DNA from: Pseudokineococcus lusitanus
GTDB lineage: Bacteria > Actinomycetota > Actinomycetes > Actinomycetales > Quadrisphaeraceae
Reading direction: 5' to 3'
Assembly: GCF_003751265.1 (NCBI RefSeq)
Contig: NZ_RJKN01000002.1
Coordinates: 434,001-498,000, forward strand
DNA: 64,000 bases
Shown piece by piece: positions 4,077 through 30,604 of this stretch. The position numbers were made by a program, and so were the translations under genes. Each line of letters starts with the position of its first letter. Position 1 is the stretch's first letter. The notes under the pieces are model-generated. The model did no database searches. It was given only the letters and a program-made list of their open reading frames with translations, and was not told the DNA's origin.

Positions 4077-4376
4077 TCAGGGGGCGTGCAGCGGCCGCAG
4101 GCACGACGCGGGCAGCCACCCCATGACGACGCCGCCCGTGCCGTCGTCCCCCAGCGCGTAGGCGACGCGGGCCTGCCACGCGCCCTGCTCGTCGCGCCGC
4201 CAGCCCGCGACGACGCCGGGCATCGGCTCGACGTCGGGCATGAGCACCCAGCAGTGCGTGCCGCGCGGCGAGCGCCGGGGCGTGGCGCCGGGCGCTCCCC
4301 CGTCGGCCCTGTCAGCCCCGTCAGCCCCGTCGGCCTCGTCGGGCGCGGCGGCCGACTGCTCGTGCTGGTCGGCCAT
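4077..4376 (-). CDS. Small HCWVL-core protein with a LexA-type box upstream (paralogue 1)
   Basis: Protein of 99 residues that I do not recognise. The first 35 residues are a low-complexity Ala/Asp/Gly tail. The conserved part (about 40-99) contains THCWVLMPDV, GVVAGW, a W-ARV-YALGD strand and LRPL, and aligns nearly end to end with the C-terminal half of the gene at 30120-30557. The alternation of short hydrophobic strands suggests a small beta-barrel. The ATG at 4376 is chosen because it precedes the tail and lies 58 bp from the LexA-type box at 4435-4450. Damage-inducible expression is inferred from that box. No catalytic motif is visible. It ends 13 bp from the convergent response regulator. 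Confidence 0.75.
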   Translation of the reverse strand: MADQHEQSAAAPDEADGADGADRADGGAPGATPRRSPRGTHCWVLMPDVEPMPGVVAGWRRDEQGAWQARVAYALGDDGTGGVVMGWLPASCLRPLHAP

Positions 4377-4434
4377 GGATCGGCGGAAGGCGGCCGCCCT
4401 GCTGCTCGACCACCCTCCGCCCACGACGGAAGGT

Positions 4435-4450
4435 TCGCACAGACGTTCGA
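4435..4450. promoter_or_regulatory. Near-consensus LexA (SOS) box
   Basis: TCGCACAGACGTTCGA matches the actinobacterial LexA palindrome TCGAAC-N4-GTTCGA with one mismatch, in the left half-site. It lies between the macro-domain gene and the small HCWVL gene, 58 bp upstream of the latter's ATG. Support comes from the perfect box in front of the paralogous gene. Confidence 0.62.
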
Positions 4451-7183: not shown

Positions 7184-8791
7184 TCAGCCCGGGGCGGGAC
7201 CGGCCCCGGCGAGGGCGCCGTGGCCCGAGGCGCTGTGCGCGTCCGCCCGCGCCCGCAGGTGCTCCGGCACGTGCCGGAGCACCTCGGCCATCGCCCGACC
7301 GCCGCCGCGCCAGTCGCCGCCGTCCAGCGGCACGGTCGCCGTCGTCCCGACGAGGACGTGCGTGAAGCCCTCGCTGTCGTCCTCCAGCAGGCCGAGGACG
7401 TCCTCCCACCGCACGGTGGCGCGGTGGTCGGGGCCGGTCGTGAGCGTCACGCCCTCCTCGCCGACGACGAGCCGCGCGCGCCGCGGCACGCCCTTCCACC
7501 ACCGCGGCAGGTAGGTCCGCCCGGTCACGGTGGTCGGGGACGACGTCGGCCACACCGAGAGGTCGGCGACGCGCTCTTCCGCGTCCGTCTCCTCCGGGAC
7601 GACGACGAGCGCGGACCGCTCCACCGCGCGGAAGACGTCGCGGACGTCCTCCGGGCGCACGGACCGCGCCTCCTCGTCGATGTCGGCCGTCTCCTCGCCC
7701 GCCCACCCCAGCACCCGGCACTCCGCCCGCCACCGGGCGTAGCCCCGGAGCCGCTCGGGGTCGGGCTGCTCGCCGGGGTCCTCGCAGAAGATCTCGACCT
7801 CCTCGGCCAGCTCGGCCGCCGAGGGGCCGCGCTGGGCCAGGTCGCGGAGGACCGACCTCACCACGTCCACGACCTGCCCCTCACGTCCCTCCGGCGGCGC
7901 GGCCGTCACGAGCAGGTGCCGCTCCCCGTCCGACAGGCGGAGGAGGTCCACGTCGACGTCGTAGACGAGGCCTCTGCGGGTCCTCAGCTCCGTCACGAGA
8001 CGCTCCTCGAGCAGGTTCGCCCCCATCGACGTGGCGACGGCGTGCGGCACGACGGCGGTCACGGCGACCGGTACGTCCGGCAGCGACAGGCGGGCCGGGA
8101 GCGGCGCACCCACCGGCAGCTCGCCACGGTCGACCGACGGCGGTCGGCCCGGCGGCAGGGGCAGGGCGAGGTGCCCCGGCACCGGCCCGGACAGCCAGAC
8201 GCAGGCGTTGCCGGCGACCGCCCAGCGCGCCGCCCACTCCCTGACGGCGGACGCGTCCAGGGTCGCCGTCGCGGGCTCGACCAGGGCCGCCAGCCCCGCC
8301 CGACGCCGGCCGAAGCGCTCCGCCAGGAGGGTGGCGCCGAGATCCGGTCCGCCGTCCTCCCGCTCCTCGGCGGCGAGGACGTCGAGCTCCAGGGCGAGGT
8401 GGTCGGTCGGCGGGTCGGCCAGGAGCTCGCAGACCCGGCGCAAGAAGGTGACGACCACGTCCGGGGAGCCGCTGACGTGGAACTCGGTCGACAGGACGTC
8501 CACCGAGGCCCCCACCGCCGCCCTCCGGGTGTGCACCTCGCGCATGACGAGGTGCTCGAGGAGGTGGGTCACGCCCCGCCGGAGGTAGGGCTCGTCACGC
8601 CAGCCGACCCCGAGGACGAGACCCGCCGACAGCTCCCCCGGCGCCTCCACCGAGACGACGGGCACGCCGTCGACCTCGGTCCAGCGGGTCCGGCGGCCGG
8701 TCGTCCGGCCGACGGTGGTCGCGTCGTGGCCCGCGGAGGAGGTCGAGGTGGTCACCCCGGCATGCTCACCGCCGGGCACGCGCCGGCGCAC
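7184..8791 (-). CDS. M16-like (insulinase family) zinc peptidase with C-terminal PH-like domain
   Basis: About 535 residues from GTG 8791 (GGAAAGG just upstream); GTG 8755 is an alternative start. The zinc motif HLLEH is intact at about 76-80, with a candidate third ligand in VLAAEE (about 138-143), closer than usual. The second M16 half is recognisable by ELRTRRGLVYDVDV. The last about 80 residues, from RARLVVGEEGVTL onward, look like a bacterial PH-like strand pattern. There is no signal peptide or membrane span, so it is probably cytosolic. Unlike most bacterial M16 proteins it is not next to a partner subunit. Substrate unknown. Confidence 0.78.
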   Translation of the reverse strand: MRRRVPGGEHAGVTTSTSSAGHDATTVGRTTGRRTRWTEVDGVPVVSVEAPGELSAGLVLGVGWRDEPYLRRGVTHLLEHLVMREVHTRRAAVGASVDVLSTEFHVSGSPDVVVTFLRRVCELLADPPTDHLALELDVLAAEEREDGGPDLGATLLAERFGRRRAGLAALVEPATATLDASAVREWAARWAVAGNACVWLSGPVPGHLALPLPPGRPPSVDRGELPVGAPLPARLSLPDVPVAVTAVVPHAVATSMGANLLEERLVTELRTRRGLVYDVDVDLLRLSDGERHLLVTAAPPEGREGQVVDVVRSVLRDLAQRGPSAAELAEEVEIFCEDPGEQPDPERLRGYARWRAECRVLGWAGEETADIDEEARSVRPEDVRDVFRAVERSALVVVPEETDAEERVADLSVWPTSSPTTVTGRTYLPRWWKGVPRRARLVVGEEGVTLTTGPDHRATVRWEDVLGLLEDDSEGFTHVLVGTTATVPLDGGDWRGGGRAMAEVLRHVPEHLRARADAHSASGHGALAGAGPAPG

Positions 8792-30119: not shown

Positions 30120-30557
30120 TCAGGCGGGGCGGAGCTGCTCCGCGGCGAGCCAGGTCTCCACGACCGTGAGCATGTCGCCGTCCCCCAGCGCGTAGACGAC
30201 GCGGGCGCGCCAGCCCTCCGGCGTCGCCCGCCACTCGGCGACGACGCCCGCGTACGGCTCGTCGTCCTCGCCGGCGGCCCCGTCCGCCCCGTCCGCCGGG
30301 ACGTCCCCGACGTCGCCGGGCAGCACCCAGCAGTGCCGGTGCGCGCGGCGCAGCTCCGCGGGGTCGGGCAGCGCGGCGGGACCGCGCGGCTCGGGCACGC
30401 GCTCCTCGACCGGCGGCGGCCCCACGGGCCCGGACGGCCCCGAGGACGCCGCCCCGCCCGGTCCGCGGCTGCGCCCGAGCAGGGCGTCGCCCGCCGCCGT
30501 ACCGCCCGACGACGCCCCGCGCCGGGGTCCGCGCCCGGCCGTCATGCCCCCTGCCAT
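30120..30557 (-). CDS. HCWVL-core protein with a perfect LexA box upstream (paralogue 2)
   Basis: Protein of 145 residues from ATG 30557 (ATG 30545 is in frame too). The N-terminal 70 residues are Gly/Pro/Ala-rich and probably disordered. The C-terminal part has HRHCWVLPGDV, an acidic insertion, YAGVVAEW, W-ARVVYALGD and LRPA, aligning with the 4077-4376 protein across its whole core. I do not recognise the family. A perfect SOS palindrome lies 31 bp upstream. The downstream neighbour is pspC on the same strand (97 bp away). Function unknown, and no catalytic residues are evident. Confidence 0.75.
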   Translation of the reverse strand: MAGGMTAGRGPRRGASSGGTAAGDALLGRSRGPGGAASSGPSGPVGPPPVEERVPEPRGPAALPDPAELRRAHRHCWVLPGDVGDVPADGADGAAGEDDEPYAGVVAEWRATPEGWRARVVYALGDGDMLTVVETWLAAEQLRPA

Positions 30558-30588
30558 GCCGCCATGCTGGACCGCCGGCGGCCTCCTG

Positions 30589-30604
30589 TCGAACGCGTGT
30601 TCGA
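30589..30604. promoter_or_regulatory. Perfect LexA (SOS) box
   Basis: TCGAACGCGTGTTCGA is an exact match to the actinobacterial/Gram-positive LexA consensus TCGAAC-N4-GTTCGA and fully palindromic. It lies 31 bp before the HCWVL paralogue 2 start and 46 bp beyond the putA stop, both genes on the minus strand. Confidence 0.8.

Follow-up and report, generated by a model that had tools for sequence, protein, structure and literature searches.

Actinobacteria may hold an unrecognised family of LexA-controlled proteins with an SH3-like barrel and a leaderless mRNA, in lineages that include the Geodermatophilaceae, Nocardioides, the window's own family and Mycobacterium/Nocardia/Rhodococcus types; taken jointly, this reading is tentative and as a whole rather doubtful. 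The window is the entire stretch of 64,000 nucleotides of Pseudokineococcus lusitanus DNA analysed here, and the gene at issue, located at 30120-30557, lies behind a LexA (SOS) box. Judged from the sequence, control of this gene by LexA is near certain, and the evidence on its product leans towards a damage-tolerance accessory protein. The complete chain that we propose, a LexA-repressed stand-alone SOS gene encoding an accessory subunit of error-prone DNA synthesis, is a serious possibility that stops short of being probable. The features on which the following description draws are:

30120..30557, minus strand: SOS-box gene, 145 amino acids (ORF call; MAGG start fits the family; dN/dS)
30123..30338, minus strand: C-terminal domain, residues 74-145, predicted SH3-like barrel by analogy with the L086 model (alignment and L086 model)
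30564..30569, minus strand: putative -10 hexamer CAGCAT, six bases 5' of the start codon, without the extended -10 TG of the family (family upstream alignment)
30589..30604, no strand assigned: perfect LexA (SOS) box TCGAACGCGTGTTCGA (pattern match; kept in relatives)
4077..4424, minus strand: paralogue, 115 amino acids, proposed GTG start at 4424 (family match, promoter register, dN/dS analysis)
4431..4439, minus strand: putative extended -10 TGC GAACCT of the paralogue, overlapping its LexA box (promoter register)
4435..4450, no strand assigned: one-mismatch LexA box of the paralogue (pattern match)

The reading frame is as the first-pass annotation had given it, a minus-strand frame of 145 amino acids with 31 nt between the box and the ATG. 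This ATG fits the M/V-A/S-GG start of the family; synonymous variation of its Ala and Gly codons among the relatives compared shows that the motif is conserved at the protein level, and the same variation rules out the GCAGGAGG-like string after the start as a Shine-Dalgarno element. In comparisons with two genomes of the same genus, dN/dS values of 0.28 and 0.32 were obtained for the C-terminal part of the gene and of 0.63 and 0.43 for the N-terminal part. The earlier statement that the product has no known motif is upheld for Pfam, NCBIfam and PADLOC, in which the protein found no match, and the HCWVL / GVV-W / ARV-YALGD core named on that occasion proved to be conserved across the family. 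Since several members have HVWV instead, the Cys of HCWV is unlikely to serve in redox chemistry or metal binding. The description as a single-gene SOS unit of an uncharacterised family was likewise borne out, the gene standing alone and the family being without an existing model.

The box had been called perfect, and TCGAACGCGTGTTCGA at 30589-30604 indeed matches TCGAACRNNYGTTCGA with zero mismatches. It is the sole perfect match in the window, where four sites fit the pattern with up to two mismatches and shuffles lead one to expect 0.74; across the 3.84-Mb genome there is a single copy of the exact 16-mer. Genome-wide, the pattern TCGAACN4GTTCGA has six perfect sites, this box among them, and 29 with at most one mismatch, compared with two for a reversed-pattern control. 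Fifteen of these 29 sites were inspected, namely two in the window and 13 of the loci L175-L187: LexA-type boxes are located upstream of recA (L186), around lexA and a divergent LysM gene (three boxes, L183), in front of the DUF6504 gene that heads the dnaE2 operon (L177), in front of DUF222 genes (L175, L176, L179) and of an integrase-type gene (L187), and at the 5' end of a radical-SAM gene as called (L178). Two boxes lie within genes, one for an ABC transporter (L181) and one for a WYL-domain protein (L182), so that not every site need be regulatory.

Conservation of the box in relatives is the main evidence for regulation by LexA. Two sets of loci were assembled, set A from 127 confirmed relatives, of which the best 80, mostly from Blastococcus, Geodermatophilus, Modestobacter and Nocardioides, were taken, and set B from 58 loci of other genomes, two of which are common with set A; a distant branch of the family formed a third. 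Inspection of the regions upstream of homologues had been proposed as a check, with a general lack of boxes as the refuting outcome, and the result speaks against refutation: a box with at most one mismatch is present at 76/76 usable loci of set A (those among the 80 with 400 bp upstream), 63 times as a perfect match and with 3/1730 control bins at the same loci, and a box with at most two mismatches at 57/58 loci of set B (2/56 downstream controls; the exception is L078), many loci of both sets being closely related and the counts therefore not independent. The 20 loci of the distant branch all have a box within two mismatches (5/119 in the control), and all eight plasmid copies examined, out of 12 plasmid records with matches, have a one-mismatch box. 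The operator lies in a promoter and is kept in homologues, and lexA and recA are present in the source genome with the same box type. That the box is a chance match or the site of another regulator is extremely improbable; the few members without a box (the viral copies L085, L166 and L167, L078 and L174 of G044, and L232) would fit such a view, but the conserved boxes with their matched controls, the promoter register described below and the boxes at lexA and recA argue against it, and a chance match as such is ruled out by the conservation in the three locus sets together with the promoter register.

The promoter was examined by lining up the upstream regions at the xGG start. From 143 entries, 32 without such a start and one that was too short were set aside, leaving 110 sequences, of which 107 are distinct and mostly from Geodermatophilaceae. 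Within the distinct set, the box ends 19-22 nt 5' of the start in 92/107 cases, an A at -11 is combined with a T at -7 in 91 (ten shifted registers give 0-10), and TG is present at -15/-14 in 88. From these sequences we read the family promoter as an extended -10 element six bases 5' of the start codon with the LexA site just upstream of the -10, and an extended -10 at this distance from the start codon would yield a leaderless mRNA. In the gene at 30120-30557, the register is occupied by CAGCAT, the TG is missing and the box lies farther from the start, at 31 nt. The distant branch shows the A at -11 together with the T at -7 in 16/20 cases, with a shifted-register control that is less clear-cut here, 13/20 at a shift of 5, probably owing to the A and T in the box itself; the box of this branch often includes TATGAT and ends 2-4 nt 5' of the start in 17/20 cases.

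The proteins of the family are about 100 amino acids long and consist of a conserved N-terminal arm, a linker and the predicted SH3-like barrel. The core profile matches 38/297 genomes of the order (35 clear and 3 weak matches), 35/296 genomes of the class and 5/396 of a phylum sample, in which one match (L172) looks spurious and 14 candidates were scored per genome, so that absence elsewhere is weakly supported. The distant branch was detected in 21/101 genomes of another family (Mycobacterium/Nocardia/Rhodococcus-type) and in eight plasmid records from Rhodococcus, Nocardia and Mycolicibacterium, and both branches match each other by profile comparison at 96.5%. A second member, absent from the account of the first-pass annotation, is encoded at 4077-4424 of the same window, about 26 kb from the SOS-box gene, and is recovered by the distant-branch profile alone (E 4e-5). 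Viral copies number three, one in the Microcystis phage MinS1 (L085) and two on viral contigs (L166, L167), and three further viral scans gave no additional locus. Searches of existing collections yielded three weak names in Pfam for 21 family members (E 0.05-0.15), one weak name in NCBIfam (0.03) for 16 members of the distant branch, the window protein being the one main-branch member scanned there, no PADLOC match for four proteins, five single PHROGs matches among 60 members (E 0.03-0.09, chance level) and no match to the PDB by sequence. No description of the family was found in the open literature searched; the family is apparently undescribed, and its gene may be present without a name in published lists of LexA targets. 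For Streptomyces venezuelae, most LexA-bound genes are of unknown function (PMC9380542).

The fold of the window protein was taken from an AlphaFold2 model of a Blastococcus member (L086; 57 rows), with which it shares 39% identity in the alignment. This model comprises five strands, the last preceded by a short turn, has block-mean pLDDT values of 94-97 over residues 41-97 and contains a less certain helix (residues 14-20) in the arm; the strand order is the same in the model of a distant member (L201), and a long hydrophobic helix is absent from both. The fold searches gave low-scoring hits to Tudor, chromo, KOW (including NusG) and ribosomal SH3-like barrels; the best Foldseek E was 0.07 and the best Z 7.5, a type of value that is common according to the tool's own warning, and nothing in the fold libraries fell below E 0.001. 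On the basis of the models, we read the barrel of the family as SH3-like. In the arm, an M.GG start is present in 48/57 aligned rows and the motif [SPTA][LM]x(0-1)[ED]R in 31/57. The net charge of the barrel has a median of 0 in the 57 rows and is -9 in the window protein, and complete proteins of the distant branch range from +1 to +8; with values spread from -9 to +8, charge is not decisive as a pointer to DNA binding.

Genomic context provides no constant partner. A Pfam survey of six set A loci and the window revealed no neighbour common to the lineages. The genes downstream of the Blastococcus member encode two small proteins without a match and a DUF998 protein and have relatives in 61, 51 and 57 of the 80 set A loci, in three genera of the Geodermatophilaceae; the DUF998 protein was not found at a Nocardioides locus (L156), and a common operon partner was not seen. 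The family gene of the same-genus genome G003 has a PspC gene at a distance of about 1.3 kb; neither putA nor the phospholipase gene turned up in its 1.5-kb flanks. When the flanks (1.5-6 kb) of 169 loci were searched by tblastn with DnaE2, DinB, DUF6504, RecA and LexA of the source genome, with positive controls, 168 had no gene resembling any of the five; the exception is L208, where a same-strand gene for a Y-family polymerase precedes the family gene by about 370 bp. With polymerase genes absent from the flanks except for this single case, the family gene would normally act in trans.

A link to error-prone synthesis is suggested by co-occurrence. The source genome possesses an operon (L239, 2805-8334) for DUF6504, a SAV_6107-like HEPN protein and a C-family polymerase, which we take for DnaE2; a perfect LexA box lies at 8385, and a Y-family polymerase gene follows further down. 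DUF6504 is present in 29/35 genomes with a clear family match and in 48/262 without (p 5e-14; uncorrected for phylogeny), in 29/38 versus 48/259 if the three weak matches are included, and, counted by hand per genus and again uncorrected for phylogeny, in 10/12 versus 26/83 (p 9e-4); six of the 35 clear-match genomes are without it. The control family DUF222 displays no co-occurrence (27/31-35 versus 161/213-217, p 0.18 to 1, the ranges reflecting four genomes not listed by name). A LexA-type box precedes DUF6504 at all 15 loci inspected, 14 of them perfect and one with one mismatch, and among 14 control genomes DUF6504 was found in Caulobacter only. We infer that DUF6504 corresponds to ImuB-C. 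Homology of the new family to DUF6504, for which a common W-R-G-R string might speak, is ruled out by profile comparison (0.6% and 0.5%).

Because of the architecture of the proteins and the co-occurrence with DUF6504, we favour an accessory subunit of error-prone synthesis. DNA damage would almost certainly activate RecA and lead to cleavage of LexA and formation of the leaderless mRNA of the SOS gene. The protein would probably serve as a trans-acting adaptor, and as a non-catalytic one in view of the fold and the absence of conserved acidic or Cys/His sets. Its arm and barrel could then dock on the error-prone machinery (DnaE2 and/or a Y-family polymerase) in the way of UmuD' or YolD/YqjX, a step that we consider quite possible rather than probable. 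The polymerase gene at L208 speaks for the accessory-subunit reading; the many functions that SH3-like barrels serve, the weak fold matches, the 168 loci whose flanks have none of the five genes, the six clear-match genomes without DUF6504 and the few members without a box count against it.

Among the known systems closest to the family is YolD/YqjX (PF08863), whose members are described in two reports as proposed accessory subunits for YqjW/UvrX, in Y-family mutasomes of Gram-positive bacteria, and, like the new family, as small, SOS-controlled and composed of an SH3 core with an N-terminal arm; they can also be encoded away from the polymerase with a LexA site of their own, as is yolD apart from uvrX in Staphylococcus aureus (PMC6511836, PMC12926913). 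In contrast to YolD, the window protein, 21 family members and 16 members of the distant branch have no match to the respective Pfam model (E limits 1, 1 and 0.1), and of the 169 loci searched a polymerase gene adjoins the family gene at L208 only. The YolD barrel belongs to the WYL/Sm-like branch of SH3 folds; the barrel of the family is predicted as SH3-like, and its weak fold matches point to no particular branch. UmuD', the SOS-induced accessory subunit for UmuC, shares the SH3-type core and the N-terminal arm (PMC12926913), but Peptidase_S24, the model for UmuD, has no match in the same three groups of proteins. Stand-alone ImuB-C is a further small SOS-linked beta protein tied to DnaE2 (PMC3765255); its barrel, however, is reported as not SH3-like (PMC12926913), and its equation with DUF6504 is itself ours. 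DnaE2 systems without ImuA and ImuB that are tied to a stand-alone ImuB-C are reported from actinobacteria only (PMC12926913). The DUF222 (13E12-type) genes of the source genome carry the same LexA box type but represent an unrelated protein family. The best reading is hence that the family functions like UmuD' or YolD and, on the searches made here, belongs neither to YolD nor to UmuD nor to ImuB-C.

Several other functions would be compatible with a small LexA-controlled protein. An SOS checkpoint of cell division, with a small soluble inhibitor that holds up division after damage by binding to a protein of the divisome or cell cycle, is the least unlikely of them, still at no better than an outside chance, since the size, the stand-alone gene and the tight LexA site resemble those of SOS division inhibitors such as SulA, YneA, SidA and DivS. 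Yet the source genome already possesses the LysM gene divergent from lexA with its three boxes, an arrangement that resembles that of Rv2719c, and the SOS division inhibitors of Gram-positive bacteria are generally membrane proteins, whereas the family models are without a long hydrophobic helix. A Tudor-type domain binding to RNA polymerase is suggested by the best fold matches, which are the Tudor, chromo and KOW barrels including NusG; as none of these matches is significant, we regard it as rather improbable.

A modulator of RecA or LexA that brakes or times the SOS response in the manner of DinI would suit a small LexA-controlled protein whose plasmid copies also have boxes, but no link by sequence (PDB) or fold was found, and little probability remains for it. 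About equally improbable is a domesticated phage or plasmid function that damps prophage induction or acts against phages: copies do occur on actinobacterial plasmids, in phage MinS1 beside an integrase gene and on the two viral contigs, but the viral ones are restricted to these three, PADLOC and PHROGs provide no support beyond chance level, and chromosomal copies that keep the LexA box are far more numerous.

LexA boxes accompany the members of the family with unusual regularity. The family occurs in Geodermatophilus, Blastococcus and Modestobacter, which are radiation- or desiccation-tolerant genera, and it is a good lead for a new damage-response helper. Were it a mutasome subunit, it would provide actinobacteria with a part of the UmuD/YolD type, and the make-up of the DnaE2 systems described as being without ImuA and ImuB (PMC12926913) would become directly testable.

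Some additional observations concern individual loci. In two same-genus genomes (L022, L023), the relative of the paralogue retains an adjoining response-regulator gene, and at L260 (2312-4369) a Y-family polymerase gene and a distant family member lie side by side behind a perfect LexA box. The MinS1 copy (L085, 7884-8174) retains the arm motif next to the integrase gene, and two Rhodococcus plasmids (L235, L237) carry a divergent member with a one-mismatch box between mihF and a CopG-type regulator gene. The gene tables of Nocardioides and Pimelobacter plasmids (L083, L084, L238) have no entry for the family gene at the matching position, so that such tables may under-count the family. The site within the WYL/WCX-domain gene (L182, 1368-2345) has one mismatch, and another ORF follows this gene, an arrangement resembling pafBC, the other damage regulator of actinobacteria. 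The DUF222 genes with LexA-type boxes also include L180 (in addition to L175, L176 and L179; box sites in G000 at C6:302 and C8:335), and some of the boxes are no more than about 1 kb away from the end of a contig, which would fit a break in the assembly at these repeats.
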